Part shown: in pieces, positions 116 to 53,637 of the stretch
Position numbering within the stretch: position 1 is the first letter of the stretch
How the letters are laid out: every line of letters begins with the position of its first letter
Origin: a virus
Direction: 5' to 3' (one strand)
Length of the DNA stretch: 64,000 nucleotides
IMG/VR virus record: IMGVR_UViG_3300017917_001524
Span: 1 to 64,000 of that record
Notes under the pieces: model-generated
Database searches by the model: none
The model's input: the letters and a program-made list of their open reading frames with translations, nothing else
What the model was told of the DNA's origin: nothing
Made by a program: the position numbers and the translations under genes

Positions 116-418
116 ATGACATTCAAACAATGGATTATAGAATTATTTAAAGATGAAAGAGGTTATATTTCCATAAAACCGGTAATTTCTTTTATTGGTT
201 GTGTTTTCTTATGTGTAACAATGTTTGTCAATGCGGTAATTGCTAAAGGTTTAAATGTTGACGAAACATTAGTTAACGCGGTAATGATGATAACATCAAT
301 TAGTTTGGGTGCGGACACATTTGATAAGTTTTCATTTAAACAAAGATATGACGAACCACAAAACAACACACAACAAAACAATGTGGAACAAATTAACGAT
401 CCCGTTGATGTTCGTTAA
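116..418 (+). CDS. small membrane protein, holin candidate
   Basis: A 100-residue protein with two hydrophobic segments (about residues 20-45 and 48-66), a charged N-terminus (KDERGY) and a hydrophilic Gln/Asn-rich tail. This size and topology suit a small phage inner-membrane protein such as a holin, but no family is recognised with certainty and no endolysin lies beside it. It has its own TATTTATA box 22 nt upstream. It converges with the RNA-repair operon, whose last gene overlaps it by 4 nt. The holin role is inference from topology alone. Confidence 0.65.
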   Translation: MTFKQWIIELFKDERGYISIKPVISFIGCVFLCVTMFVNAVIAKGLNVDETLVNAVMMITSISLGADTFDKFSFKQRYDEPQNNTQQNNVEQINDPVDVR

Positions 419-732
419 TTTTTTAATGCTTCATATAGTTTTTTAATTTCGTCACATTTAGAATAATCTTGAATTGATATATAATAAGGTAAATAATGAT
501 CAATCAAATAATTAATTTTTGATTGATCATTTTTGTTTATTATAAAATTGGTTTCGAATTCAGTATCACAAACTGACGCAATTACGTTTAGGGTTGTTTC
601 ATCAACACCATTGGTAATTAGTTTATTATAACATTGAATTAATTCGTCATTTATTTTTTTTTCGTTCTCTTTATAGAATTCGGTAAAAGAATCGTATTTT
701 TTAACAATGACAATTTTATTTTTTTCTTTCAT
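415..732 (-). CDS. hypothetical protein, last gene of RNA-repair operon
   Basis: 105 residues, charged and mostly helical in appearance, with no recognised domain. Its ATG overlaps the stop codon of the upstream receiver-domain gene (ATGA arrangement at 729-732), so the two are probably translationally coupled. Position at the end of the kinase-ligase-receiver operon suggests a related function, but nothing in the sequence shows which one. Confidence 0.7.
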   Translation of the reverse strand: MKEKNKIVIVKKYDSFTEFYKENEKKINDELIQCYNKLITNGVDETTLNVIASVCDTEFETNFIINKNDQSKINYLIDHYLPYYISIQDYSKCDEIKKLYEALKN

Positions 733-1166
733 GGTTCGTAAATAAATGGAATATTAACTGAGACACATGTTAGTTTTTGTCTCGAATTTTTTAAAAAGTT
801 ATTAATATAACCAATAATATTAGCTGCACCTATTGGGTTTGCAGAATGGGTGTAAACTAATGGGAACACGAAATCTGGGTTATATCTGTGTTTACTTATA
901 TAGTGATTAACCAACCATTTTGCACAATCATATCCCGTTTTTTCAATTATGTTATCGTAATTTATTGTGTAATTTGGTTGAACGTTATTAAAATATTCGT
1001 TCATTGCTGTGTCACCAAGATCATGGTCTAACGATATGATGTCGAAACTTTCAATTCCATGTAACGTAACTGTGTCAACAAATTCGTCATAATTTCGAAC
1101 AACAATCCAATGACCGTCAATTGGTGTTCGAGTATCATCAAGATATAAATTTAGGTTTTTATTCAT
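729..1166 (-). CDS. cyclic-phosphate-processing receiver-domain protein
   Basis: 145 residues covering one receiver-like domain. Visible motifs are LYLDDTRTP near the N-terminus (receiver acidic pair), SLDHDLGD about residues 45-52, GYDCAKWLV, and THSANPIGAANI near the C-terminus. This pattern matches the receiver-like family proposed to process 2',3'-cyclic phosphate RNA ends, which is typically found beside RNA ligases. Here it lies directly downstream of an Rnl1-type ligase and a small P-loop kinase. The likely role is to prepare the 3' end (cyclic phosphate to 2',3'-OH) before ligation, replacing the phosphatase domain that T4 Pnkp has and the neighbouring kinase lacks. Family assignment is fairly firm; enzymatic activity is inferred. 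Confidence 0.75.
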   Translation of the reverse strand: MNKNLNLYLDDTRTPIDGHWIVVRNYDEFVDTVTLHGIESFDIISLDHDLGDTAMNEYFNNVQPNYTINYDNIIEKTGYDCAKWLVNHYISKHRYNPDFVFPLVYTHSANPIGAANIIGYINNFLKNSRQKLTCVSVNIPFIYEP

Positions 1167-1180
1167 TAATATATGTGTTT

Positions 1181-2275
1181 TTAAAATTTTGGTTTTTGAT
1201 ATTCAGGATAAATCATATCCCAAATTTTGTTTATTGTGTTTATTGGGTTCAACAATTCTTTACGATATGAGAACAACAAATGTGGGTATTTCTTTGTTTT
1301 TGCATGTTCAGCATATCTTTTAGCATATTCTCTTTCGTCAAATATCATGTCATCACCCAATAACATTTGTTCATCGATGAGTTTATTTTCGATTTCCCAA
1401 TAATCGGTAATAACATGACCTATGATTTCATCACGTTTATTTTCAAAGTCTTTGATTGTATTTTTAACCCAATTATAGAACTCGTCAGGTACTTTATCCA
1501 AAATATCATCTAATGGTTTATTTTCTTTCAAGTATTCCCATATATCTCGATTGGAAACATTTGTTAATATTCTATGGAGACGACAATATTCGTCACCTTT
1601 AATTTTCATTCTAAAACCATTTTTGAATCGAATAACGAACCCTTCAGCGTCATTTGGTATTATGGATTTTAATGTTGAATAGTCATTTATTCCATCGTAC
1701 TTTTTAACAATTGGGTAACCACACATTTTTGAATACCAAAGAAGTGTACTATATGGTAGTTCATATCCTGTTTTGGTTTCAAACGCTGATAACAATACTA
1801 ACATTTCTTCATTATATCGAACAACAATAGTATTATCAGGGTAAATAATTTCAACCAAATAAGTAAAACTGTTCACCAATTCAGTTGTATCATAATTTGC
1901 ATCCAATATTTCCTTACCTTTTATTGCTTGATCAGAAGTGAATGATCCTCTTGTTGCCAATATCCATTCTCCATTATAGTAAAATAAAATACCTAATGAA
2001 CCGTCCAACTTTTCAAAAACTTCGAATGGTTCATTTGGTATCATATGTGGTGAGTTTTCTAAATACTCATCATAATTAAAAAATTTTTTAAATGGACGAG
2101 CAATGATTTCCCCTTCGGAATTGGTTACCAATCCTCGGCATTGTATTGTAATTTCATCCCATAAACCATCGTATTGAACTTTTTTAGAATAGTTCCAAAT
2201 AGTCAAATCATAGGTTGGGTGAACTTCTTTTAACAAAAACCCATCTTGATAATATTTTTCTAACTTATCTAACAT
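1181..2275 (-). CDS. T4 Rnl1-like RNA ligase
   Basis: 364 residues, close to T4 RNA ligase 1 (374). Nucleotidyltransferase motifs in order: motif I KLDGS with the predicted adenylated Lys at residue 89, motif III-type LVEIIYPDN at about 140-147, motif IV EGFVIRF at 211-217, and motif V RMKIKGDEY at 222-230 with Lys224 and Lys226. An upstream CRGLV segment (46-50) also fits the family. The enzyme should join 5'-phosphate to 3'-OH RNA ends using ATP. It sits between a 5'-kinase gene and a cyclic-phosphate receiver gene, which together make a complete end-healing and sealing set, probably for tRNAs cut by host anticodon nucleases. Confidence 0.92.
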   Translation of the reverse strand: MLDKLEKYYQDGFLLKEVHPTYDLTIWNYSKKVQYDGLWDEITIQCRGLVTNSEGEIIARPFKKFFNYDEYLENSPHMIPNEPFEVFEKLDGSLGILFYYNGEWILATRGSFTSDQAIKGKEILDANYDTTELVNSFTYLVEIIYPDNTIVVRYNEEMLVLLSAFETKTGYELPYSTLLWYSKMCGYPIVKKYDGINDYSTLKSIIPNDAEGFVIRFKNGFRMKIKGDEYCRLHRILTNVSNRDIWEYLKENKPLDDILDKVPDEFYNWVKNTIKDFENKRDEIIGHVITDYWEIENKLIDEQMLLGDDMIFDEREYAKRYAEHAKTKKYPHLLFSYRKELLNPINTINKIWDMIYPEYQKPKF

Positions 2276-2299
2276 TTAGTTTTTATGAATTATTAAAAA

Positions 2300-2725
2300 T
2301 TACAATTTAACTTGAAATCTTTTTTTCATTTCCATAATTTTATTTTCGGAAACACCATGGGTGTTCACACCTGAATGACGGTTTTCAACAATCAAACTAT
2401 GTACTCGATAGTTATATCGTTCCGCCATTTCATAATATGGTGTCATTTCCCACTCTTGGGTAAATGTATTTGCAACGACTATTCTTGAAAATTTATTTTT
2501 CATTTTTTCTGAACATCGTTGATGACAACTATTATGTGCTTCAGTTAGTTTAGATCCATCGAAAAGATATTCACCGTTTTTATTGATAAAATAATCATCA
2601 GCAGAAATAACATCAGGATTATCTGAAATAACACATCTAAGAATAACTGATCCTAATGTGGACTTACCTGATCCTGGTACACCTCTTAATAGAATCAAAT
2701 CACCAACATAATTATTTTTTTCCAT
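2300..2725 (-). CDS. P-loop polynucleotide kinase-like protein (kinase domain only)
   Basis: 141 residues with Walker A GVPGSGKS at 15-22, a following acidic motif SADDYF (about 42-47), HNSCHQRC, and a VVANTF strand motif. This is the AAA_33 / NEDD4-binding-protein-2-like kinase fold shared with the kinase half of T4 Pnkp. It lacks the C-terminal HAD phosphatase of T4 Pnkp (301 residues), so it should only phosphorylate 5'-OH ends. It is the first gene of the leftward operon with the ligase and receiver protein. Substrate (RNA 5' ends) is inferred from that context. Confidence 0.8.
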   Translation of the reverse strand: MEKNNYVGDLILLRGVPGSGKSTLGSVILRCVISDNPDVISADDYFINKNGEYLFDGSKLTEAHNSCHQRCSEKMKNKFSRIVVANTFTQEWEMTPYYEMAERYNYRVHSLIVENRHSGVNTHGVSENKIMEMKKRFQVKL

Positions 2726-2763
2726 TGAAAACGTTTTTCACAAATATATGAAAATTAACTGAT

Positions 2764-2795
2764 AAAAAAAAATGTCCCAACTAGTTGTTGGGACA
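2764..2795 (-). terminator. Rho-independent terminator on minus strand
   Basis: Perfect 9-bp stem (2773-2781 with 2787-2795), 5-nt loop TAGTT, and a run of nine A on the plus strand at 2764-2772 that reads as nine U on a leftward transcript. It lies downstream of the Clp gene and ends the candidate small RNA. Confidence 0.8.
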
Positions 2796-5501: not shown

Positions 5502-5747
5502 ATGGGAATTATATCGGAAAAAATTGAAGGAAAACTTATTAATGTTGAAATAAATTCATCAAACCTAAAATCAGCGTCATATAATACTGAAAATGAAGAT
5601 TTGACGATAACATTCAATAATGGTAGTATTTATGTGTATAATAAAGTTCCTTGGAATGTGTTTACAAAGTTTAGGTTGAGTCAATCTCAGGGTAAATTTT
5701 TTAATACTGACATTTCAAAAGTATACAAATACACCAAAAAACAATAA
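5502..5747 (+). CDS. KTSC-domain protein
   Basis: 81 residues. From about residue 18 it shows the KTSC pattern: SSNLKSASYNTENEDLTI, FNNGSIYVYNKVP, then FTKFRLSQSQGKFFN. KTSC domains are small folds of unproven function, common in phage and bacteria and often associated with nucleic-acid proteins. Its stop codon overlaps by one base the ATG of the nucleotidyltransferase gene, so the two are likely co-translated. Confidence 0.8.
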   Translation: MGIISEKIEGKLINVEINSSNLKSASYNTENEDLTITFNNGSIYVYNKVPWNVFTKFRLSQSQGKFFNTDISKVYKYTKKQ

Positions 5748-6499
5748 TGAAACCAAACCATTTTAACGAATTAATTGAAGATATTGATAAGGATATTGTT
5801 GATTCATTTCAAATCAAGGATGAATTATCTAATGAAATATTTGATTTTAATGGTGTTGACTATAAATTAAAAAACGATATCAGAAAAAAATTATTGAAGG
5901 TTTCTGATAAATTTATTGAATTTATAGGTGTTGAGTTTTTCATTTATGATATTGTTTTAACAGGTTCTTTAGCCAATTATAATTGGTCGGAATATTCGGA
6001 TATTGATTTGCACATTTTAATCGATTTTAAAGAAACCGAGTACGATTTAATGATTTTAAAAGAATTTTTTGATGCTAAAAAAACAATATGGAATAAATCA
6101 CATTCAATTAAAATCAAAAATTACGATGTTGAATTGTATGTTCAAGACACCAATGAAGAACACATTTCAACAGGTGTTTATTCAATTTTGAACAATGATT
6201 GGGTAATCAAACCAAAAAAAACCAATCAAAAAATTGATAAAAGAAAAATTCTTGAAAAGGGTGAAACATTTGCAAGAGAAATTGATGACTTAACTGACTC
6301 ATCAAAAAATAACACATTAAATAGGGTAAATCGATTATTATCCAAAATAAAAAAATTCAGACAAACGGGAATTAAAAAAGGTGGTGAATATTCTTACGAA
6401 AATCTAACATTTAAATTATTGAGAAGAAGTGGTTACATTGAAAAACTGTTTAAATTAAAAACAGACTTAATCAATAAAAAATTATCCGTAGCACAATAA
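5747..6499 (+). CDS. nucleotidyltransferase-fold protein
   Basis: 250 residues. The central part has the pol-beta-type nucleotidyltransferase signature: GSLANYNW at 73-80 followed by D-I-D at 85-87 (metal ligands) and a likely third acidic residue in YDVELYVQD. The C-terminal part is Lys-rich and helical. Such proteins transfer a nucleotide to RNA, protein or a small molecule; the substrate cannot be read from sequence. It starts within the stop codon of the KTSC gene. Confidence 0.75.
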   Translation: MKPNHFNELIEDIDKDIVDSFQIKDELSNEIFDFNGVDYKLKNDIRKKLLKVSDKFIEFIGVEFFIYDIVLTGSLANYNWSEYSDIDLHILIDFKETEYDLMILKEFFDAKKTIWNKSHSIKIKNYDVELYVQDTNEEHISTGVYSILNNDWVIKPKKTNQKIDKRKILEKGETFAREIDDLTDSSKNNTLNRVNRLLSKIKKFRQTGIKKGGEYSYENLTFKLLRRSGYIEKLFKLKTDLINKKLSVAQ

Positions 6500-10408: not shown

Positions 10409-10437
10409 AAAAGGTGGGGTTTTCCTCACCTTTTTTA
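10409..10437 (+). terminator. intrinsic terminator before terL
   Basis: Stem AAAAGGTG/CACCTTTT extended by one G-U and two G-C pairs, then a T-run at 10431-10436. It isolates terminase from the upstream block. Confidence 0.75.
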
Positions 10438-10438
10438 G

Positions 10439-10446
10439 TATTTATA
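10439..10446 (+). promoter_or_regulatory. late-promoter-like TATTTATA box of terL
   Basis: Exact TATTTATA only 6 nt before the ATG at 10453. If it is spaced like a T4 late promoter, transcription would start at or next to the start codon. Confidence 0.6.
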
Positions 10447-10452
10447 TATAAT

Positions 10453-13400
10453 ATGAATACTAAAATAGAACAATTAAAAGAGTATGCTCGAATAATTCGT
10501 GATACTCCATATGCGTTAAAAACGTATTTACAGACATACGATAACACACAAAAAAAATATGTTCCATTAGAGTTATTTCCCGATCAAATTCAACTATTAA
10601 ATGATTACGAGAAATATAATGATAACATTACCAGAAAATATCGACAGGCGGGGGTTACAACAGTTACAGCTGCATGGATTTCAAAAAAATTACAAACAGC
10701 CAAAAAAGAACAACCTGAAAGGGTTTTGATTGTTGCAAATAAAAAAGATACCGCCGTTGAAATGGCTAATAAAGTTAGACATTTCCTTGAACAATGGCCT
10801 GAATGGATGAATGTTGGTTTTTCACCTGATAAGAATTCTGAAAGTAGATTTAAATTAAATAATGGTTGTGAAGTTAAAGCAGTACCAACATCACCAGACG
10901 CATTACGTGGTTATTCACCAACAATATTAGTTTTTGATGAGGCTGCGTTTATTGAGGCTGGTGAAGACTTTTGGGCTGCTTCTATGGCATCACTATCTAC
11001 AGGTGGTAAAGTAATTTTAATTTCAACACCAAATGGACACGATCCAATTTATTATGGTGTTTATAAGTTAGCAAAAACCGGTGATAACGATTTTCATATT
11101 ACCGATTTAAGATGGTTTAAAGACCCTAGATATGCAAAAGATTTAAGATGGGTTAAGTGTAACGATATTGTACACTACATGTTAAATAGAGAATTATATA
11201 ATGACGATGAAGTTGTTATGACGGATTTTGATATTGAAAAATATGAAGAATATCATGAACAAGGATACAAACCATTTTCAAGTTGGTTTGAATCTATGTC
11301 AAAAAAATTCAAATATGACAGAAGGAAAATTGCACAGGAATTGGAATGCGATTTTTTAGGTTCTGGTGATAGTGTCATACCATCTGAAATTCGTGATAAC
11401 ATTATAAAAAACATGGTTAAGAACCCAATAGAAAAATATATGCAAGGGTTACTTTGGCAATGGAAAGAACCAATTGTTGGTCACCGTTATATTTTAGGGT
11501 GTTTAACACCATATGAAAAAGTTATGACTAACGATGGTTTAAAAAATATCATTGATGTAAACAATGATGATAAATTAATAAATGAAAATGGTGATATTGT
11601 TAATATAATTAATAAACAAATATATGAGGTGGTTAACGAACCCATATATGAAATAACAGTAGATAATACATATAGAACTACAACATTTACCAAAGAACAC
11701 CCAATACTAATAAGTAAACCGATTTTAAAAAGAAATTACATTAAAAATCATCTAAGTTATAATTTCAATGAAAGATATTGGGATTTTGACTTTAAATATG
11801 TTAAAGCTGAAGATATTAAAATTAATGATTGGATTAGAGTGCCTAACACCTATAATAAAATAATAAACGTTGATTTTGATAAAAAATGGGAAGATGATAC
11901 TAATGAAGTTAGGGTTGATTATAAAATAAAATCACCATTACAAAATGTTAATTTTTGGTGGTTAATTGGTGTTTGGTTGGGTGATGGTTGGGTACAAAGT
12001 AATAAAGATTCATTTTCAATACATTTATGTTTTAATAAGAAAGAAAAATATTATTTAGATAAATCATTAGAAACCATAAAAACACTACTTGATAGAAATC
12101 CATCAATAGTGGAAAATGATACAACATTTGAAATTATCTTTAATTCAAAAGAACTGCATAGTTTTTTAATAAAAAATTTTAATCAATATTCAATAAGTAA
12201 AAAAATACCCGAATGGGTTAAGTATTTACCAAACGATTATAAAATAAATCTAATAAAGGGGTATTTTAACAGTGATGGTTGTTGGATAACAACAACTAAA
12301 AAAAATCAAATAAATTCAAAAATATCCTTTGTTAGTGTAAATCTTGAATTATTAGAAAGTATTCAAGACATTCTATTTTCATTGGGAATAATTTCATCAT
12401 TAAATAAATTACGTGACGAAAAAAAACAGGTAATATGTGGAAAAACATCAGACACTAGAAAATGTTATAATTTATGTTTGGTACATTATGACAGTTTACA
12501 GTTAATAAAACTATTTAATGATTTAAATGATATTAAATTGAAGAAATTTAATTTAGATGATTTTAAAATAAAAAATAAAAGAACAATTTCATCGTGTCAT
12601 TTAAGTAATGATAACAAATGGATTTATTTTAAAGTAAAAAAGATTAAAAAATCAATATATACTGGTAATGTCTATAATTTTGAATGTGATACACATACAT
12701 TTATGTGTCACCATATAACAACACATAATTGTGATGTTAGTAGAGGAGATAGTGAAGATTATTCTGCAATAAACATAATTGACTTTGATGAAAGAGAACA
12801 AGTTTTAGAATACATTGGAAAGATACCACCTGATGATTTAGCGTCAATCGCTTATAAGTGGGGGATACTTTATGGTAATGCGTTTATTGTTACGGATATT
12901 ACAGGTGGAATGGGTGTTGCAACATCTAGAAAACTACAAGAATTAGGTTATAAAAATTTATACATTGATGGTATTAACACACAAAATATTTGGGAGTATA
13001 ATAATAAAGCGTTAGAAAAAATACCCGGTATAAATTTTAATAATAAAAGAACACAAATTATTGCTGCATTTGAAGAACAACTAAGAAAAGGTTTTATTGT
13101 AAGATCAAGTAGATTAGTTACGGAATTAGATACGTTTGTGTATTTAAATGGTAGACCTGATCACATGAAAGGGGCTCATGACGATTCTATTATGAGTTTA
13201 TCAATTGCATTATATGCTGGTGATATCTCATTTAGTCAATTACAAAGAGCAGATTCTACAAATAAGGCAATGTTAAACGCTTGGGTATCATCTGAAAGAA
13301 CATATGAAGTAAATAAAACGCATTATTCATATGGTAAAGAATTTGATGCAATTGGGTCAATGAAAATGGGTGACAGTTTTTATAAAGAAGTTCACCCAAT

Positions 13401-13458
13401 GAATGCAACTAAAAATCAATATGAAGAATACTCATGGTTGTTCATGAAAAAAAGATAA
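10453..13458 (+). CDS. terL: terminase large subunit (gp17-like) with in-frame intein
   Basis: 1001 residues as read; 591 after removal of a 410-residue intein (T4 gp17 is 610). The ATPase domain has a deviant Walker A RQAGVTT (64-70, Val where Lys is usual), Walker B ILVFDEAAF (158-166) and coupling motif STPNG. The nuclease domain has CDVSRGDSEDY interrupted by the intein, VTDITGG, and HDDSIMSLS. Start chosen at 10453 because an upstream in-frame ATG at 10414 lies inside the terminator. The protein pumps DNA into the prohead through the portal encoded by the next gene and cuts the concatemer. Confidence 0.93.
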   Translation: MNTKIEQLKEYARIIRDTPYALKTYLQTYDNTQKKYVPLELFPDQIQLLNDYEKYNDNITRKYRQAGVTTVTAAWISKKLQTAKKEQPERVLIVANKKDTAVEMANKVRHFLEQWPEWMNVGFSPDKNSESRFKLNNGCEVKAVPTSPDALRGYSPTILVFDEAAFIEAGEDFWAASMASLSTGGKVILISTPNGHDPIYYGVYKLAKTGDNDFHITDLRWFKDPRYAKDLRWVKCNDIVHYMLNRELYNDDEVVMTDFDIEKYEEYHEQGYKPFSSWFESMSKKFKYDRRKIAQELECDFLGSGDSVIPSEIRDNIIKNMVKNPIEKYMQGLLWQWKEPIVGHRYILGCLTPYEKVMTNDGLKNIIDVNNDDKLINENGDIVNIINKQIYEVVNEPIYEITVDNTYRTTTFTKEHPILISKPILKRNYIKNHLSYNFNERYWDFDFKYVKAEDIKINDWIRVPNTYNKIINVDFDKKWEDDTNEVRVDYKIKSPLQNVNFWWLIGVWLGDGWVQSNKDSFSIHLCFNKKEKYYLDKSLETIKTLLDRNPSIVENDTTFEIIFNSKELHSFLIKNFNQYSISKKIPEWVKYLPNDYKINLIKGYFNSDGCWITTTKKNQINSKISFVSVNLELLESIQDILFSLGIISSLNKLRDEKKQVICGKTSDTRKCYNLCLVHYDSLQLIKLFNDLNDIKLKKFNLDDFKIKNKRTISSCHLSNDNKWIYFKVKKIKKSIYTGNVYNFECDTHTFMCHHITTHNCDVSRGDSEDYSAINIIDFDEREQVLEYIGKIPPDDLASIAYKWGILYGNAFIVTDITGGMGVATSRKLQELGYKNLYIDGINTQNIWEYNNKALEKIPGINFNNKRTQIIAAFEEQLRKGFIVRSSRLVTELDTFVYLNGRPDHMKGAHDDSIMSLSIALYAGDISFSQLQRADSTNKAMLNAWVSSERTYEVNKTHYSYGKEFDAIGSMKMGDSFYKEVHPMNATKNQYEEYSWLFMKKR
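11500..12729 (+). mobile_element. LAGLIDADG intein in TerL nuclease domain
   Basis: 410-residue intein (TerL residues 350-759). First residue Cys in CLTPYEKVMTNDG (block A); block B TKEH; block F-like GNVYNFEC; C-terminal HITTHN followed by +1 Cys. Two LAGLIDADG-type motifs, LIGVWLGDGW and LIKGYFNSDG, mark a homing endonuclease. Splicing would join YILG to CDVSRGD, restoring the first acidic motif of the nuclease. All splice-junction residues look intact. Confidence 0.93.
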
Positions 13459-13515: not shown

Positions 13516-16290
13516 ATGTCTCAAAATTTAACTGTTTTTCAGAAATTGACAAAAATGTTTGGGTTTGTTGGACAATCACCAGATGAAACACAACAACCAC
13601 CACAATCATATAATTTTTCTAAAGACGAACTATTAAAAACAAATAGTCGTGAAGAATACGAAAAACAACTATTACAATCACGTCAAACTCAATATATTGC
13701 AGATAAATGGACAAAATTAGACCAATCATTATATAACCAATCTGTTTATTATGAACCAAACAGAATGGCAGCATATTTTGATTATGAATCGATGGAATTT
13801 TGTTTGGCGGGAGATACCAAAATAGCAACACCAAATGGTTTCATAACGATAAAAGAGTTATCAGACATGGGTAGAGAACATGAATTTATTGTCTATTCAT
13901 ATGACCATAATATAAAAAAGGTGGTACCAGCATGGGCTCGAAATGCACATCATACAAGAGATGAAATGACATATAAGGTTACTTTTGATGATGGTACACA
14001 TATAATTGGTACGTATGATCATAGACTTATGAAAAGAGATGGTTCATTTAGTAGAATTTCAGAATTAAAATCTGGTGATTCTATGATGCCATTTTATAGA
14101 AAATCTTTTTATAATAATAAATATAATTGGGTATACACATGTAATTCAAATCAGGGGCACAATGGTTGGGTTTCTGAACATAATTTGATTGCGGAATGGT
14201 TTTATGAAAGAAAAATAAAGAAAAACGAAGAAGTTCATCATTTAGATTTTAATGGTAAAAATAATTTACCTGAAAATTTAAAAATAATGGACATCAATGA
14301 ACATCGTTCATATCATGCAAAATTAAATAATGAAAAATTATGGTCAAATCCTGAATTTAGACAAAAAATGTCTGAAGTTGCTAAAAGAAAAGGTAAATTA
14401 AATTGGAATGGAAGAAGAAGTAGTAGAAATAATCCAACTTATTTTCACATACCTTTTGATTTAATAACAGAGACCGCTAAAAAATGTAAAACTTTAAAAG
14501 AAACATCAAAATCGTTAAATATTTCACACACAAAATTACAAAGAGAATTAATGTGGGCGGGATATAAAGATTGGTCGACATTTTGTGGTGCATATGGTAT
14601 TGAAAAATCAAAATACTCTACCGCAAAAGTAAAAGGTGATAAATATGTTTTAAATCATAAAGTAGTTTCAATTGAACCTTATGGTGTTATACCTGTTTAC
14701 GATTTTACTGTACCAGGTTATAAAAATTTTGCAACTGATACAGTATTTTCCCATAATACTCCGGAAATTTCTGCAGCATTAGACATTTATGCGGAAGAAT
14801 CTACAACAATGTCAGAAAAGGGTGAGATATTGACAATATATTCAGAATCAAAAAGAGTTAAAAGTGTATTAGAAGATTTATTTAATAATAAATTAGATAT
14901 TAACACAAATTTACAAATGTGGGCTAGAGGATTATGTAAATATGGTGATGATTTTGTTTATTTAAAAATTGATCCTGAAAAAGGTATTGTTGGTTGTCAA
15001 CAATTACCAAATATTGAAATTGAAAGAATTGAAGGTGCGAATGGGTTACCAAATTCAGATTCCAAGTTATCAACCAGAGAACTTAGATTTTCATGGAAAA
15101 ATAAAGACATGGAGTTTCAATCTTGGGAAATGGCTCATTTTAGATTATTGGGTGATGATAGAAAACTACCTTATGGTACCTCGATGTTAGATAAGATTAG
15201 AAGAATTTGGAAACAATTATTGTTAGCAGAAGATGCGATGTTAATTTATAGAACAACAAGAGCACCTGAAAGAAGAGTATTTAAGGTTTTTGTTGGTAAT
15301 ATGGATGATCAGGATATTGAACCATATGTACAAAAAGTAGCAAACAAATTTAAAAGACAAGCAGTACCAGATCCAAAAAATGGTCAGGTTGATATGAGAC
15401 TTAATCAACTTGCTGTTGATCAGGATTATTTCATTCCTGTTCGTGATCCATCACAAACAAACCCAATTGAAACATTACCAGGTGCACAGAATTTAGGTGA
15501 AATTGCAGATATCGAATACATTCAGAAAAAATTATTGGCAGCACTTAGAATACCAAAAGCGTTTTTAGGGTTTGAAGAAGTTGTTGGTGATGGTAAAAAT
15601 TTAGCATTAATGGATATTCGTTTCGCAAGAACGATAAATAAAATACAAAAATCATTAATTCAAGAATTAAATAAAATTGCGTTAATCCATTTATATTTAT
15701 TAGGGTTTGAAGATGAATTAAACAACTTCACATTATCATTAACTAACCCATCCGCACAATCTGATTTATTACGTATTGAACAATGGAAAGAAAAAATAAC
15801 GTTATATAAAGACGCAACATCAGATCAATCACAAATTGGTATTTTACCTGTATCACATACATGGGCTAAGAAAAATATATTAGGTATGAGTGATAATGAT
15901 GTTATGTTAGACCTACAACAACAACGTTTAGAAAGAGCAGTTGGTTTTGAATTAACTAACACACAAAACATTATTAAACGTTCAGGTGTGTTTGATGATG
16001 TGGATAAGAAATATGGTATTTCTGATGAAGAACGTAAAAAAATGGAAAATTCTACGTCATCAGATGTTGCTGGCGATATGGGAGGTGAAATTGGTGGTAC
16101 AGTACCTCCACCACCAACAAGTGAACCCGATTCAGGTGCTAATGATGCGTCATTAAATGAGTCAAAAAAAGATAAAATTTTGTCAATGTTAGGAACAAAA
16201 TCAAATTTTAGTGATTTATTTGATATGAATAAGGCACAACGTAATATTTATGAAATAGAAAATAAAATAAATGATATCTTAAATGATTAA
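13516..16290 (+). CDS. portal protein (gp20-like) with in-frame intein
   Basis: 924 residues as read; 605 after removal of a 319-residue intein (T4 gp20 is 524). The N-extein ends FDYESMEF and the C-extein starts TPEISAALDIYAEEST, together the conserved portal segment. Further portal features are YGDDFVYLKID, a wing/stem region and a late NLALMDIRFARTI segment. The C-terminus is Pro/Gly/Asp-rich. It forms the dodecameric DNA channel at one capsid vertex and docks terminase. It lies 57 nt after terL. Confidence 0.92.
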   Translation: MSQNLTVFQKLTKMFGFVGQSPDETQQPPQSYNFSKDELLKTNSREEYEKQLLQSRQTQYIADKWTKLDQSLYNQSVYYEPNRMAAYFDYESMEFCLAGDTKIATPNGFITIKELSDMGREHEFIVYSYDHNIKKVVPAWARNAHHTRDEMTYKVTFDDGTHIIGTYDHRLMKRDGSFSRISELKSGDSMMPFYRKSFYNNKYNWVYTCNSNQGHNGWVSEHNLIAEWFYERKIKKNEEVHHLDFNGKNNLPENLKIMDINEHRSYHAKLNNEKLWSNPEFRQKMSEVAKRKGKLNWNGRRSSRNNPTYFHIPFDLITETAKKCKTLKETSKSLNISHTKLQRELMWAGYKDWSTFCGAYGIEKSKYSTAKVKGDKYVLNHKVVSIEPYGVIPVYDFTVPGYKNFATDTVFSHNTPEISAALDIYAEESTTMSEKGEILTIYSESKRVKSVLEDLFNNKLDINTNLQMWARGLCKYGDDFVYLKIDPEKGIVGCQQLPNIEIERIEGANGLPNSDSKLSTRELRFSWKNKDMEFQSWEMAHFRLLGDDRKLPYGTSMLDKIRRIWKQLLLAEDAMLIYRTTRAPERRVFKVFVGNMDDQDIEPYVQKVANKFKRQAVPDPKNGQVDMRLNQLAVDQDYFIPVRDPSQTNPIETLPGAQNLGEIADIEYIQKKLLAALRIPKAFLGFEEVVGDGKNLALMDIRFARTINKIQKSLIQELNKIALIHLYLLGFEDELNNFTLSLTNPSAQSDLLRIEQWKEKITLYKDATSDQSQIGILPVSHTWAKKNILGMSDNDVMLDLQQQRLERAVGFELTNTQNIIKRSGVFDDVDKKYGISDEERKKMENSTSSDVAGDMGGEIGGTVPPPPTSEPDSGANDASLNESKKDKILSMLGTKSNFSDLFDMNKAQRNIYEIENKINDILND
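13801..14757 (+). mobile_element. HNH-endonuclease intein in portal gene
   Basis: 319-residue intein (residues 96-414). Block A CLAGDTKIATPNG, block B GTYDH, block F IPVYDFTVPGYKNF, C-terminal VFSHN with +1 Thr. The homing domain is HNH rather than LAGLIDADG: EVHHLDFNGKNNLPENL with a following HRSYH, then a basic segment (NPEFRQKMSE) and a helix-turn-helix-like SLNISHTKLQRELM that probably recognises DNA. Junction residues intact, so splicing is expected. Confidence 0.93.
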
Positions 16291-44782: not shown

Positions 44783-47700
44783 ATGAAAGAAACGATCTCA
44801 CAAGAGGTGATCGAAACCTTTTTAAATGGTTCCGACCCTGAACAATTTATTGTTGGTGTTGAATATGATTACAAAACCAACACAATTCACAAAATAATAC
44901 AAGATCCTGAAAAAGGTAAGATAATAAAACCCGACACATTTACTCCGTTTTTGTGGGTTGGTGATTTAACAGGGTTAGGATTTTACAAGAACAATAAAAC
45001 AGTACAAAAAAAGAAGATGGCAGAATTCGGTATCTTAATTGAAAAATTAAGAACCGATAATAATGATAGATTAGAACAAGGTATGAAATACTTGGTTAAA
45101 TCTATTAATGGATACACAGATTTAATTAATTTTTTTAGATTCGGTGGATTAGATCCATGGAGTGAAAAGGCTAAACCACATTTCATAGTATTATCTCCTG
45201 TTGAACAATACTTGATCCAAAAAAAGAAGAGACTTTTTAAAGGTATTGAAGACTATAGTGATGTTTATCGATTTGTTTTCGATATTGAAACAACGGGTTT
45301 AAATCCTGAAGAAAATAAGATAATATTAATTGGTGTTAAAGATAATCGTGGTCTACAAAAAACCATATCAGCGTTTGGTGATGATGGTGAAAAAAAATGT
45401 ATTGAAGAATTTTTCAAATATATTAGGGAATATAAACCAACTATTATTGGTGGTTATAATTCTGCATCATTTGACTGGCCTTTTATATTAAAAAGATCAG
45501 AAATATTAGGTGTTGATACTGAAGGATTGACATCGATTTTCACATCACAAGGAATTAAAGAAAAAGAAGGTGTGTTAAAATTGGCGAATGAGGTTGAACC
45601 ATACAAACAACATATTATTTGGGGGTTCAATATCATCGATATTTCACATTCAGTTCGTAGAGCGCAAGCGATTAATTCTGAAATTAAATCTTGGGGATTA
45701 AAGTACATTACAAAGTATTTGGAGAAAGAAAAACCAAATCGTGTGTATGTTGAAGATGGTTCTAAAATTTCATCAATCTATTTGAATAATACATTATACT
45801 ATATTAATCCTAAAACAGGTAAATATAGAATGGTTGGTGATAAAGGTACTGAAGGATTGATGGAGAAATATCCAGGTAAATATGAGATATGGTCAGGTAA
45901 ACAAATTATTGAGCAATATCTTGATGATGACTTGTATGAAACAATGTTAGTTGACGATTCTTTTAGTCAATCTACGTTTTTATTGTCTAAATTAGTACCG
46001 ACAACATATGAACGTATTGCAACAATGGGTACTGCTACGTTATGGAAAATAATCATGTTGGCATGGTCATATGAAAATAATTTAGCTATACCTAAAAAAG
46101 ATGAAAAACGTTCAATTACTGGTGGGTTATCTCGTTTATTAAATGTGGGGTTTTCAAAAGACATTGTTAAGTTTGACTACGCATCACTATATCCATCGAT
46201 TCAACTTGTTTATGATGTGTTCCCCGAATGTGATATTATGGGTGTACAAAAATCAATGTTAAAATATTTCAGAAACATTCGTATCAAATATAAAAGACTT
46301 AAAGAAGAATATGAAAAAAACGATCCCGAATTATCTGAATATTATGACCGTAAACAATTACCAATTAAAATATTCATTAATGCATATTTCGGATCATTAT
46401 CCGCACCACATGTATTCCCATGGGGTGACATGGATAAAGGTGAAACAATTACATGCGTCGGTCGGCAATGTCTTCGTATGATGATTATGTTCTTCATGAA
46501 CAAAGGTTATAAACCACTCGTAATGGATAGTGTTGAATACGACACACCTATTTATTTGATGGATAAAATAGGTGATTTAGTAATTGAACCGATATGTGAT
46601 TTATTTGATGAACAAAGTGAATATAAAACAATTGATAACCTTAGAGATGTATCTGAAAAACCATTTAAAGTTTTAACAAAACATGGGTGGCAACCAATAA
46701 ATTATGTGTATCGTCATGGTACTACTAAACAAATACATAAAGTTGTTACTAAAGACCGTTTGGTTAACTGTACTACAGACCACTCATTATTTCAAAATGG
46801 TGTTCAAATAAAACCAATTGAATTACAAAGGGGTAGTGAAATTGATATTGTGGATATTCCTCGAATGAATACAATATCAACAATGACCATTAATCGTGCA
46901 AAATTAATTGGTTTTTTTATTGGTGATGGTTCATCTTGTTATAGGAAAAAGAAACATATTTATTATTCTAAGAAGAAAAAAGAAAATGTTGAATATCAAT
47001 GTTTTTCAGGTAATTTCACACTTAACAATAATAGAATAGAACTACTTGAAGAATTTCAAAAAATTATAAAAGAAGAATATTTTATTGACACCAAAATAAA
47101 TGATTGTTTAAAATCTTCAAAAGTATATAAATTACAGACATCTAATTCTGAAATTTGTAAATGGTTTAGTGAAAATTGTTACACATCATATCGTCAAAAG
47201 AAAATACCAAAAGAAATATTAAATGGTACTGATGAAATAATGAAATCTTTTATGGAAGGTTTTTATTTAGCAGATGGTTGGGGGGATAATTTTAGTGAAA
47301 TGACAGATATTACACAAAAATCTAAGGTTTGTTTAGCGGGTATTTCTTTTATACTTAAACAATTGAATATTGATTATAAGATTTCAATAAGAAAAGACAA
47401 ACCTAATATTCAGTCATTAATATTAGGAACATCAAAAAAGGGTAAATGGTATCCAATAAATTCTGATAAATCAATTAGAAAAAGTAATGAAGTTTGGTTT
47501 AACGTGGTAAATGAAAATAAAGAACAATACGTTTATGATATATCAACTGCGGATGGTACGTTTGTTGGTGGTATTGGTGGTGTTTTATTAAAAAATACAG
47601 ATGGTGTTAACTTTTCAACACCTGAAGATATTTTAACACACAAATACGTTGGTAAAGGATTAAATGAATTGGTTACTAAAGATAAAGAGTATGCGGGTAT

Positions 47701-48754
47701 TGCCGCTGATGTTGCGGAATTTAATGACATTTTTATGAGAAATGAAATGGGGTTAGATATTGATTACGTCGCACCATCTTGTATTAACGTTTCACGTAAA
47801 AACTACATCATTAAAGTAATAAAGAAAGGTAAAGAAAAAATCAAACTAACAGGTAACACAATTAAATCCAAAAAATTACAGCAATATATTGTTGAATTCT
47901 TAGACGAAGGACTAAAACATTTATTGAATGGTGATGGACATTCGTTTATCGAATTATATTACGACTATGTATCAAAAATATATAATAAAGAAATTCCACT
48001 ATCAAAGATTGCAAATAAATCACGTGTAAAACAAAGTGTTGAGGATTATTTGATACATATTACAAAGAAAACCAAAGCAGGTGTTTTAATGTCGAGACAG
48101 GCACATATGGAATTGATTCTACAAAGTCAGTATCCAGCATCTTTAGGTGAAACAATTTATTATGTAAACAATGGTGCTAAAAAAACATCGGGTGATGTTC
48201 AAAAAATCACAAAACCAACAAAAAGACAAAAACAAGAATATCTTGATAAACATGGTGTAGAAATGCCAGCAGATTTTATTGAGATAAATTGTTACATGAT
48301 TCCAGAAAAAGAAATACAAAATAATCCTGACTTAAAAGGTGATTATAATGTTGCAAGATATTTACATAATTTCAATAAGCGTATTGAACCATTATTGGTC
48401 GTTTTTAAACCTGAAATTAGATATGATATCTTGGTGGACGACCCTAACAATAGACAATATTTTACGAAATCACAATGTGAATTAGATCATGGTAATCCAT
48501 TAAAAGAACATGGTCAAGACAATTTTGACGAAGTAATGACACTATCAGAAAGTGAAGTTGCATTTTGGAATAAAGTAGGTAGAGACCCTTATTTTATGTA
48601 TGTTGAAAACAGTATTAACCATGTTGATCCATACTGGGTTGATCACAATAGAAAAGTGGTTTCTTTAGAGGAAGTATCGACAGTATCAAACGAAGATGAA
48701 ATAATTAATGATAATGATAGTGATATTGCATACCATTTAATGTTCGATAATTAA
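44783..48754 (+). CDS. B-family DNA polymerase (gp43-like) with in-frame intein
   Basis: 1323 residues as read; 967 after removal of a 356-residue intein (T4 gp43 is 898). Exonuclease motifs FDIETTG (D167, E169) and GGYNSASFDWPF are present, so proofreading is expected. Polymerase motif A KFDYASLYPSI, motif B-type KIFINAYFGSL and motif C split by the intein (VMD / TDGVNF). The C-terminus is acidic. It replicates the phage genome. Confidence 0.95.
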   Translation: MKETISQEVIETFLNGSDPEQFIVGVEYDYKTNTIHKIIQDPEKGKIIKPDTFTPFLWVGDLTGLGFYKNNKTVQKKKMAEFGILIEKLRTDNNDRLEQGMKYLVKSINGYTDLINFFRFGGLDPWSEKAKPHFIVLSPVEQYLIQKKKRLFKGIEDYSDVYRFVFDIETTGLNPEENKIILIGVKDNRGLQKTISAFGDDGEKKCIEEFFKYIREYKPTIIGGYNSASFDWPFILKRSEILGVDTEGLTSIFTSQGIKEKEGVLKLANEVEPYKQHIIWGFNIIDISHSVRRAQAINSEIKSWGLKYITKYLEKEKPNRVYVEDGSKISSIYLNNTLYYINPKTGKYRMVGDKGTEGLMEKYPGKYEIWSGKQIIEQYLDDDLYETMLVDDSFSQSTFLLSKLVPTTYERIATMGTATLWKIIMLAWSYENNLAIPKKDEKRSITGGLSRLLNVGFSKDIVKFDYASLYPSIQLVYDVFPECDIMGVQKSMLKYFRNIRIKYKRLKEEYEKNDPELSEYYDRKQLPIKIFINAYFGSLSAPHVFPWGDMDKGETITCVGRQCLRMMIMFFMNKGYKPLVMDSVEYDTPIYLMDKIGDLVIEPICDLFDEQSEYKTIDNLRDVSEKPFKVLTKHGWQPINYVYRHGTTKQIHKVVTKDRLVNCTTDHSLFQNGVQIKPIELQRGSEIDIVDIPRMNTISTMTINRAKLIGFFIGDGSSCYRKKKHIYYSKKKKENVEYQCFSGNFTLNNNRIELLEEFQKIIKEEYFIDTKINDCLKSSKVYKLQTSNSEICKWFSENCYTSYRQKKIPKEILNGTDEIMKSFMEGFYLADGWGDNFSEMTDITQKSKVCLAGISFILKQLNIDYKISIRKDKPNIQSLILGTSKKGKWYPINSDKSIRKSNEVWFNVVNENKEQYVYDISTADGTFVGGIGGVLLKNTDGVNFSTPEDILTHKYVGKGLNELVTKDKEYAGIAADVAEFNDIFMRNEMGLDIDYVAPSCINVSRKNYIIKVIKKGKEKIKLTGNTIKSKKLQQYIVEFLDEGLKHLLNGDGHSFIELYYDYVSKIYNKEIPLSKIANKSRVKQSVEDYLIHITKKTKAGVLMSRQAHMELILQSQYPASLGETIYYVNNGAKKTSGDVQKITKPTKRQKQEYLDKHGVEMPADFIEINCYMIPEKEIQNNPDLKGDYNVARYLHNFNKRIEPLLVVFKPEIRYDILVDDPNNRQYFTKSQCELDHGNPLKEHGQDNFDEVMTLSESEVAFWNKVGRDPYFMYVENSINHVDPYWVDHNRKVVSLEEVSTVSNEDEIINDNDSDIAYHLMFDN
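46529..47596 (+). mobile_element. LAGLIDADG intein in DNA polymerase motif C
   Basis: 356-residue intein (residues 583-938). First residue Ser in SVEYDTPIYLMD; block B NCTTDHSLF; LAGLIDADG motifs LIGFFIGDGS and FMEGFYLADGW; block F YVYDISTADGTFVG; end GVLLKN with +1 Thr. The penultimate residue is Lys where His is usual. It splits the catalytic D-T-D motif at the same point, with the same Ser1/Thr+1 junction, as inteins in archaeal B-family polymerases. Confidence 0.92.
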
Positions 48755-50603: not shown

Positions 50604-50846
50604 ATGAATGACAAAATCACAAGTATTATAATTAGTTTTATGACTTTTTGTGCAAAAAACAAAATAGAATTTGTCTGTAATATGGATTTAGATAAAAATT
50701 TTGTTGAATATACTGATAAAACTTTAACAATATATGTCGGTGATTTTAACGATGAAAATCTTTTACCATATTTAGAAAATGAATTTACAAAATTGACTGA
50801 ATCAATTCCTTCCCAAAGTTCTCAGAATACTCCCCATCACCCATAA
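50604..50846 (+). CDS. small hypothetical protein
   Basis: 80 residues: MNDKITSIIISFMTFCAKNKIEFV, then strand-rich middle and acidic helix LLPYLENEFTKL. Converges with and overlaps the helicase gene by 62 nt. Divergent from the neck gene. No promoter box of the common type is seen; coding status is moderately supported by composition. Confidence 0.5.
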   Translation: MNDKITSIIISFMTFCAKNKIEFVCNMDLDKNFVEYTDKTLTIYVGDFNDENLLPYLENEFTKLTESIPSQSSQNTPHHP

Positions 50847-53637
50847 CTTGGTCTATAATGTTCTTTTTCTTATTTAGAATGTTATAGATAATCATTTCAA
50901 TCGTATTTTCGAATATTGGATAATAAACTAAAACATTCTTTTTTTGACCATATCTAAACGCCCTATCTTCTGCTTGTGAGTGTAATGCGGGAACGAAAGC
51001 CAAATCATTCATAATAACCGCTTCAGCCTCTGTTAATGTGATACCAACACCACCAGCAACAATATTTGAAATAAAAATTTTAATTTTACTATCTGTCTGA
51101 AATTTATCGACATTTTCTTGTCTTTTATTTTTTGGTGTTTTACCCTCAAGTGTTACCGATATCTTACTGTACTTTTCATGTATCTCATTTAATGTACTTG
51201 TGTAATTTGTAAATACAATAACCTTTTTATCTTGCTCGATAAATCGATCAATTAATTCGCAAGTATATGACACCTTTTCTTGTGCAATTATTTTTCTAAC
51301 GTTTGATAACCTATTTAAGGTGATAGTGATATTTTCGTCTTTTTTATTTTCATTAGATATTTTAATAAAATCATCAAGTTCACTATTATATGTTGATGTA
51401 TTATTTAATTCCAAAAATATTGGAGTAATAATTTTATCTGGTAAATCAAGAATATCCGTTTTCATTCTTCGTAAAACAATATTCTTAGTTCGTTCTCTTA
51501 ATTCATCTAGATTACTTGCACCACTTGTGTTCCATATTTTTCTTTTACCAACTTTGAATTGATACCCTTTACAATACCTATACACATAATGTTGCCAATT
51601 TAATGTGACAGGAGACTCGACAATTTTTAAAAGATTATAATAATTTATTGGTCTTGAAGTCATTGGTGTTCCCGTTAATAACCAAACTTTTGGTATTTTT
51701 TCCAATAAATCATTCATTAATTTGGTTCTATTTGCAGTGGTATTTGACAAATAATGTGCCTCATCAACTATTGCCAAATCAAACCCAACATTTTCAAGGT
51801 ATTTTACACCATTTTCGTCTTCAGAATCAATTGAATGGTAATTTTTTACGATGTCATAATTAATAATGTAAAAATCAAATGTTGACCCCCATTTACCACC
51901 TTCAACAATTAAAATTTTACGATCTGTATAGTTCTGAATTTCACGAGACCAGTTTATTTTTAATGACGCAGGACAAACGATTAATATTTTTTTTGCATTT
52001 GACTCTAATGACGCAATAACCGCCGAGGTCGTGTTATGTGTTACAATACAATGCTCTGTAACATATAATTTATCCGGAGAATCAACGGAAATACATGTAC
52101 ATTCACTTTCATCATATTTTTCGATATTTGTAATATATCTACCTGTTGGATATTTTTTTGGTTCATTATATCTTTCAGATTTTCTTTTTAATCTAAAAGG
52201 ATTCATACCTTTAGGTAATTTAATATTAACACGATATGAAATATTACATTCAACACGTTTACCGTCTTTTTTATAAAAACCACGTCTTGATGTCTTTCTA
52301 GCAATACCACCTAATGTCTGTACAATCTCACAAACATCATCACAAAGTTTTTCTGATATTGTTGAAAACTCTGTTCCATGAAATTCTTCTTTTTTAGATA
52401 ACATACAATGACCATCAGTATCCATTAATCCTTGTAAAATCGCAAGACGATTTTCAACAGATGTGTATTTGTAAATGTCAGGAATGAATTTATTGTGAGA
52501 ACGAGTGTTGGATAGTTTTAAATCTGATAATGACTTACCAATATAGATGTTACCTTTTCTTTTATTGTCTTTTTGTTTATTTTCATTTATCTTAAATTCA
52601 TTAAATAACTCGTCATAATCGTCTTTATGGACATTAAAGACACAAGAACTGTTGGTTATATGTCCATCACCTAACATTAATCCTAATAAGTATGGATTAA
52701 TTGGTAATTCGTAATTATTTTCAAATTGTATTGGTTCTACAATTGGTATTTGCCACTTATTATTACCATTTGGTGATTTATAATATGTTTCAATTTCATA
52801 TTCTTTGTCTTTATTATACCCATCACCATTTATTTTTATTTTACCACCTTCATACATTTGTTTTGTTGATAAAACCAATGTTTTTTTTCGTCTTTCATTT
52901 TTTCTATTTTTTCCGTAATTTGGTGATGATACTGACCATAAATGTTCGTCACTAACAACCACAAAATAACCATCGTTAAAGTGTACTTTAAATGTCTCTT
53001 TTTTTCCTTGAGGAAATACACCGGTGACTTTTGTTGGTTTTCCATCAGAACCAATCACCTCGTCACCAACAACTATTTCTCCCATTTTTTTTCTTCCTTT
53101 TGGCGTAAATAGTAAATTGATGTTTGGTTCCGCTTTACCAACCCCCATATCATCTGCTAATATGAATTTATTATTTGCCAATAACTTTTCAATTGCTATT
53201 TTTTGATGTGGTAATGGGGGTCTTTTACTGTATTTTGAATAATCGACCTCATAATTTAATTTTTTTTCTTCTTGTAATATCGCCCCTTTTGGTAACCAAA
53301 AGCTGTGATTTTTTTCGGTATCCAATATTCTCCCCCATATATGGTATGCCTTTTCACTTTCGCATAATAATTTTTCACACCAAATTTTTAATGGGACTTT
53401 TGGTAATAAACGATCTTCTCGAATTTTCTCACCAAAACTTGGTACGATATTGATATATTTTTTAGCAACTTTTGGTGTTATATTATGGTATTTTAACACG
53501 TAATCACATTGTGACCTTGTTAATTTAAAATTTTTTAAATTAAGGTATTTTTGTTTCCATTCTAATATTTGATTATTCGCACCACCATATTCAATCAAAA
53601 CATTTTTGGCGTCTAATTCTAATATTTTTTTTGTCAT
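50785..53637 (-). CDS. SNF2/DEAD-like helicase with in-frame intein
   Basis: 950 residues as read; 583 after removal of a 367-residue intein. Walker A DDMGVGK is joined to TTSAVIA after splicing. Further motifs: VCPASLKINW (Ia), IVDEAHYLSN (II), LLTGTPMTSRP (III), VIVFTNYTSTL (IV), FISNIVAGGVGITL (V) and SQAEDRAFRYGQ (VI). This is the SNF2/SMARCAL1-like layout, with a short N-terminal domain. It probably remodels forks or branched DNA during phage recombination-dependent replication, as T4 UvsW does, though it is not a close UvsW type. Confidence 0.9.
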   Translation of the reverse strand: MTKKILELDAKNVLIEYGGANNQILEWKQKYLNLKNFKLTRSQCDYVLKYHNITPKVAKKYINIVPSFGEKIREDRLLPKVPLKIWCEKLLCESEKAYHIWGRILDTEKNHSFWLPKGAILQEEKKLNYEVDYSKYSKRPPLPHQKIAIEKLLANNKFILADDMGVGKAEPNINLLFTPKGRKKMGEIVVGDEVIGSDGKPTKVTGVFPQGKKETFKVHFNDGYFVVVSDEHLWSVSSPNYGKNRKNERRKKTLVLSTKQMYEGGKIKINGDGYNKDKEYEIETYYKSPNGNNKWQIPIVEPIQFENNYELPINPYLLGLMLGDGHITNSSCVFNVHKDDYDELFNEFKINENKQKDNKRKGNIYIGKSLSDLKLSNTRSHNKFIPDIYKYTSVENRLAILQGLMDTDGHCMLSKKEEFHGTEFSTISEKLCDDVCEIVQTLGGIARKTSRRGFYKKDGKRVECNISYRVNIKLPKGMNPFRLKRKSERYNEPKKYPTGRYITNIEKYDESECTCISVDSPDKLYVTEHCIVTHNTTSAVIASLESNAKKILIVCPASLKINWSREIQNYTDRKILIVEGGKWGSTFDFYIINYDIVKNYHSIDSEDENGVKYLENVGFDLAIVDEAHYLSNTTANRTKLMNDLLEKIPKVWLLTGTPMTSRPINYYNLLKIVESPVTLNWQHYVYRYCKGYQFKVGKRKIWNTSGASNLDELRERTKNIVLRRMKTDILDLPDKIITPIFLELNNTSTYNSELDDFIKISNENKKDENITITLNRLSNVRKIIAQEKVSYTCELIDRFIEQDKKVIVFTNYTSTLNEIHEKYSKISVTLEGKTPKNKRQENVDKFQTDSKIKIFISNIVAGGVGITLTEAEAVIMNDLAFVPALHSQAEDRAFRYGQKKNVLVYYPIFENTIEMIIYNILNKKKNIIDQVMGDGEYSENFGKELIQSIL
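52033..53133 (-). mobile_element. class 3 (WCT) LAGLIDADG intein in helicase P-loop
   Basis: 367-residue intein (residues 169-535). First residue Ala, so no nucleophile at position 1. Block B SDEHLWSV has Trp two after His; block F CTCISVDSPDKLYVT has Cys where class 1 inteins have Asp; block G CIVTHN has Thr before HN; +1 is Thr. That Trp-Cys-Thr set defines class 3 splicing. LAGLIDADG motifs: LLGLMLGDGH and ILQGLMDTDGH. Inserted directly after the P-loop Lys (GVGK|TT). Confidence 0.9.

Follow-up and report, generated by a model that had tools for sequence, protein, structure and literature searches.

What would a phage do with a kinase, an RNA ligase, a receiver-like protein and a small protein whose family has not been described, all encoded by four tightly packed genes? 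The question is raised by a minus-strand locus near the start of the window, that is, the whole 64,000-nucleotide stretch of DNA analysed here, which is itself the start of the 310,542-bp phage record IMGVR_UViG_3300017917_001524 of IMG/VR. Judging from the sequence, we regard it as reasonably probable that these genes constitute a phage operon for RNA repair, with transfer RNAs (tRNAs) whose anticodon loops have been cut by host defence nucleases as its most likely substrates. The open reading frames (ORFs) of the window sequence place the four genes at the coordinates and on the strand given in an initial annotation of this DNA:

2300..2725, minus strand: KIN, a polynucleotide 5'-kinase-like P-loop protein of 141 residues (Pfam AAA_33, PHROG kinase families, family profile)
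1181..2275, minus strand: RNL1, a protein of the T4 RNA ligase 1 family, 364 residues (RNA_lig_T4_1, phrog_562, 2c5u)
729..1166, minus strand: cREC, a receiver-like protein of 145 residues with predicted cyclic-phosphate processing (PF20274, invariant Asp and His residues)
415..732, minus strand: ORF105, a small protein of an undescribed phage family, 105 residues (33 dereplicated family members)

The kinase and ligase genes are separated by 24 bp and the ligase and cREC genes by 14 bp, and the cREC and ORF105 genes overlap by 4 bp. KIN matches AAA_33 (E=3.9e-12) and a PHROG polynucleotide kinase family (E=5e-6), and the alignment of its family reveals a P-loop (GVPGSGKST), an invariant D43 and an ENRH lid. 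When compared with solved structures, the family profile matches both T4 Pnk (1ltq, E=0.001) and the kinase of Clostridium thermocellum Pnkp (4gp7). The protein has the T4 Pnk-related kinase domain of a T4-type Pnkp without the HAD 3'-phosphatase domain in the same chain: no phosphatase domain is found in its 141 residues, nor PNK3P anywhere in the 310-kb record, and its earlier description as a kinase-only protein holds. The ligase had likewise been correctly recognised as an Rnl1-type enzyme with nucleotidyltransferase motifs. RNL1 matches RNA_lig_T4_1 (E=4e-20) and phrog_562 (E=2e-70, covering residues 6-359), and the motifs K89-L-D-G (KxDG), EIIYP 142, EGFVIRF 211 and MKIK 223 were located in it. 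It also matches the solved T4 Rnl1 structure 2c5u (E=7e-17) over residues 21-271 of 364; as for the tRNA-specific C-terminal domain of T4 Rnl1, the match stops at RNL1 residue 271. PADLOC left cREC and the ligase unmatched. It did match KIN to the AAA part of its CARF-PDDEXK-AAA model, which we read as shared P-loop kinase ancestry rather than as the mark of a defence gene.

The third protein belongs to cREC_REC (PF20274; E=6.5e-20, 72 bits against a Pfam cut-off of 27), a family predicted by Iyer and colleagues to process cyclic phosphates and linked to RNA ligases, a nucleotide kinase and phosphoesterases (PMC7824862, PMC9503650). The earlier view of this receiver-like protein as a likely cyclic-phosphate enzyme is thus in line with its family, for which the role is already a published prediction. 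Residues D10, D11, R13, D47, H48, D49, H107, S108 and N110 are invariant among 38 dereplicated relatives, and D10, D11, D47 and D49 are the receiver active-site aspartates. The AlphaFold2 model of cREC reaches a predicted local distance difference test (pLDDT) score of 96, and its closest match in the PDB, the receiver of the response regulator DesR, is weak (E=0.039, template modelling (TM) score 0.35); a sequence-based comparison of the cREC profile with solved structures yielded no match. As neither PNK3P, 2H, RtcB nor KptA was found in the genome, cREC is predicted to be the best candidate for ring opening.

T4 Pnkp performs both ring opening and phosphate removal, and the initial annotation had cREC replace this phosphatase half in a three-part system with the kinase and the ligase. 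One half of that proposal probably stands, since cREC is a likely ring opener, but the notion that it suffices alone is unsupported. As the genome encodes two HAD_SAK_2 phosphatases and three calcineurin-type (Metallophos) phosphoesterases, and HAD_SAK and Metallophos genes are present in its four largest relatives too, the three-part system is likely incomplete. Among the genes next to cREC in other phages, moreover, those for HAD_SAK and calcineurin-type enzymes are the most frequent. The sequences suggest that such enzymes can probably supply the monoesterase step in trans. In the pathway that we propose, cutting by a metal-independent ribonuclease would generate a 2',3'-cyclic phosphate and a 5'-hydroxyl. 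The cyclic phosphate would be opened by cREC, and the linear phosphate would be taken off by a phosphomonoesterase encoded elsewhere in the genome, of the HAD_SAK_2 or the calcineurin type. KIN would phosphorylate the 5'-hydroxyl and the T4 Rnl1-type ligase would seal the break, with ORF105 as a putative, conserved accessory part. Separately, a second repair cluster is present beyond the window at G000:C1:162771-169365 (L006:18771 to L007:5365), where a kinase, a HAD_SAK_2 protein, a Thg1-like protein and a diverged second RNA ligase are encoded.

How far is this arrangement conserved? We fetched 80 cREC, 31 ORF105 and 80 kinase loci from IMG/VR, and dereplication of the kinase loci at 90% identity left 56. 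Single-sequence scans of viral contigs with ORF105 or the kinase gave no matches, and alignment queries were required. The order kinase-Rnl1-cREC-ORF105 recurs in 23 of the 56 dereplicated kinase loci, in addition to the window and to one copy with a split ligase frame, and an operon arrangement that recurs in this manner is far from chance. Six dereplicated operons have the order kinase-Rnl1-ORF105 without cREC. At locus L073, cREC and ORF105 are retained and a gene for an SGNH-like hydrolase, a function read from the sequence, replaces those of the kinase and the ligase; L118 and L119 appear to be similar, with cREC-ORF105 and neither kinase nor ligase. The co-occurrence in related phages on which the initial annotation had made its proposal depend is thus strong, as seen in the recurrent four-gene order, with exceptions in the operons devoid of cREC, at L073 and apparently at L118 and L119. 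At more distant loci, the kinase is paired with a calcineurin-type phosphoesterase and an Rnl1 or DRB0094-like ligase, often together with cREC. About 28 of the 47 dereplicated cREC loci have a kinase, an RNA ligase or a calcineurin-type or HAD phosphatase within seven genes. In one relative, what reads as a GIY-YIG-like homing endonuclease gene lies between the ligase and cREC genes of the operon (L071:5243-6016). At L031:3954-4460 and L055:5920-6417, cREC adjoins an apparent TROVE/Ro-like protein of 513 residues and an RNase H-like protein (cluster c47), and a c47 relative is present in this genome at G000:298957-299433.

The position of the operon relative to tRNA genes is conserved as well. 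The two ends of the record share 99 bp, which indicates a circular or terminally redundant sequence and may simply be an assembly overlap. When the ends are joined, in coordinates only, 837 bp separate the 3' end of the operon from 29 tRNA genes that form an array on its strand. We searched 12 relatives for tRNA genes and found them in nine; in all nine, the operon lies 1.1-12.5 kb upstream of the tRNAs on the same strand, which supports tRNA as the substrate. RNA end repair as the role of the operon is supported by the family assignments of the kinase, the ligase and cREC, by the invariant acidic and His residues of cREC and by the recurrent gene order, and it is strengthened by this placement, here and in the nine relatives. 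A calcineurin-type phosphoesterase gene is found 1-4.2 kb beyond the tRNAs in five of the nine tRNA-bearing relatives and at 9.7 kb in a sixth. In this genome, an MPPED2-like phosphoesterase is encoded at the tRNA-array end, together with a transfer-messenger RNA (tmRNA; RF00023, 66 bits; L013:4513-4918, minus strand) and a GOLLD RNA (RF02032, 316 bits; L013:6088-6486, minus strand), both near the array.

Several observations nevertheless weigh against a tRNA-repair operon built around cREC. In the papers that we found, activity has not been reported for any cREC. The six operons without cREC have no copy elsewhere on the searched contigs, which are partial, and the conserved neighbourhood stems from related phages, so that the cases are not independent. 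In addition, the genome encodes NADAR, a nicotinamide phosphoribosyltransferase, a Macro-like protein and a sirtuin, which fits an action of cREC on ADP-ribose derivatives. According to an alternative of this kind, which has been published (PMC9503650), cREC would act on ADP-ribose-derived cyclic phosphates or on signalling nucleotides rather than on RNA ends. The latter would be cleaned by calcineurin-type or HAD enzymes, and the operon would group two counter-defence tasks. That some operons are devoid of cREC would agree with such a division. However, KptA was not found in the genome, and cREC is encoded between the ligase and ORF105, more than 100 kb from the NAD-related genes; we consider this explanation unlikely.

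Alternatively, cREC might be a full substitute for the T4 Pnkp phosphatase, both opening the ring and removing the phosphate, such that nothing beyond kinase, ligase and cREC would be needed. Receiver and HAD active sites have aspartate chemistry in common, and phosphatase genes of the tested families were not found in the fetched flanks of ORF105-type operons. Yet this genome and its four largest relatives have genes for HAD_SAK_2 and calcineurin-type enzymes, and the same enzyme types adjoin cREC in other phages, including Proteus phage Mydo and rV5, all of which makes full substitution improbable. As for the ligase, the PHROG that it matches best is called 'RNA ligase and tail fiber protein attachment catalyst', and the PHROG and T4 gene 63 annotations could be taken to mean that it is mainly a tail-fibre attachment factor in an operon that is not dedicated to RNA repair. 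We find this very hard to credit, given that this label goes back to the two functions of T4 gp63, that no tail genes are found beside the operon, and that the operon partners and the neighbouring tRNA array point elsewhere. RNA repair with a phosphomonoesterase provided in trans thus remains our preferred reading.

What, then, might the fourth gene contribute? The initial suggestion that the last ORF is a possible fourth part gains weight from its conservation. The ORF105 family comprises 33 members at 85% dereplication, encoded immediately 3' of either cREC or the ligase; they align over their full length and are 19-37% identical to the protein of the window. There is no consistent match to Pfam or PHROGs among the 33 members. 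At the sensitivity used, no relatives were found in annotated phages, nor, with the single pattern that was used, in a set of bacterial and archaeal genomes with one representative for each species, and the ORF105 profile matched no solved structure by sequence. The AlphaFold2 model (pLDDT 91) has a compact beta-alpha-beta-beta-alpha-alpha fold. It resembles uncharacterised phage proteins in BFVD (E=5e-5, TM score about 0.69), and its matches in the PDB are weak (best E 0.06, TM score about 0.4), mostly to PD-(D/E)XK-like proteins and Rai1. We did not adopt an assignment as a PD-(D/E)XK nuclease, as the fold matches are only weak and a conserved catalytic triad is not seen in the family alignment. 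The idea that ORF105 substitutes for the calcineurin-type enzyme MPE2 was also set aside: the two never occur together in one operon, but they go with distinct lineages of the kinase, and both are present in this genome. Because ORF105 is kept with the ligase in operons without cREC and with cREC in operons without the ligase, it does not appear to be tied to the cREC step alone, which suggests an accessory part that perhaps binds a substrate or a partner. More specifically, ORF105 might be a dedicated tRNA-repair component, such as a small RNA- or ligase-binding cofactor, in a four-part complex encoded beside phage tRNA arrays. We put forward this idea tentatively, at somewhat less than an even chance, and the cofactor role, to which we give no better odds, is modelled by analogy on Archease, which aids RtcB in resealing.

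Two further features on the 5' side bear on how the operon may be expressed:

2773..2795, minus strand: intrinsic-terminator-like hairpin followed by a U run (sequence; fold z=-2.7)
2741..2748, minus strand: candidate Bacteroidota-type -7 element TATATTTG, read from the sequence

The hairpin stands between an upstream clpB-like gene and the operon, and since it splits the kinase gene from the former, the four genes are probably driven from a promoter of their own. The candidate -7 box lies 15 nt 5' of the kinase start codon; such sites are common in A+T-rich DNA. On the 3' side, ORF105 is convergent with a small plus-strand ORF (116-418). A nucleotidyltransferase of 250 residues is encoded near the operon on the opposite strand (window 5747-6499; NTP_transf_2, E=2e-5; phrog_36119), with no RlaP match. 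Elsewhere in the genome, the genes for NADAR, the Macro-like protein (read from the sequence, with no Pfam match), the nicotinamide phosphoribosyltransferase and the sirtuin lie at G000:C1:155835-161682 and 188352-188855 and possibly form a NAD-centred counter-defence set. Intein or LAGLIDADG insertions were observed in the terminase large subunit, the portal, DNA polymerase B and a SNF2-type helicase:

10414-13458, 13516-16290, 44783-48754 and 50785-53637: window regions with intein or LAGLIDADG insertions

Neighbourhoods combining cREC, a ligase and a kinase have been described in Vequintavirinae, namely in Proteus phage Mydo and Escherichia phage rV5 (Iyer et al. 2022, PMC9503650), and we confirmed that a T4-like RNA ligase, cREC, a short kinase-only protein and a calcineurin-type phosphoesterase are encoded close together in both. 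The phage studied here has the same four types of protein. However, Mydo and rV5 have a sirtuin beside their operon and no detected ORF105 homologue, whereas the operon studied here includes ORF105, borders on a large tRNA array and lies far from the phosphoesterase and sirtuin genes. The T4 Pnkp and Rnl1 pair similarly associates a 5'-kinase with an Rnl1-family ligase, but the T4 HAD phosphatase is part of the kinase chain, unlike the stand-alone kinase of this PNK3P-less genome, and the present operon adds cREC and ORF105. In C. thermocellum Pnkp, whose kinase domain 4gp7 was matched, kinase, calcineurin-type phosphatase and ligase form one chain. In many relatives, too, a calcineurin-type enzyme and a ligase accompany the kinase, but here they are separate proteins, the ligase is of the Rnl1 type and the calcineurin-type enzymes are encoded far from the operon. 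Finally, a kinase-only protein and an RNA ligase are likewise coupled in Pseudomonas phages such as Pyxpy02, where calcineurin-type and HD phosphohydrolases are encoded close by, but neither cREC nor ORF105 was detected at the kinase-ligase locus of Pyxpy02.

It had already been published that cREC is predicted to act on cyclic phosphates and that its genes are linked to those of RNA ligases, a kinase and phosphoesterases (PMC7824862, PMC9503650). What is new is the conserved fourth gene, ORF105, and the conserved position of the operon upstream of tRNA arrays in these large phages; we found no description of either in the open-access library that was searched. The operon points to a small conserved protein family without a Pfam or PHROGs entry, and it provides a compact set of genes with which the predicted activity of cREC can be tested. 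Phages can answer one host defence, the cleavage of tRNAs, both with tRNAs of their own and with RNA repair, and the conserved order of repair operon followed by tRNA array in large phages links both answers physically.
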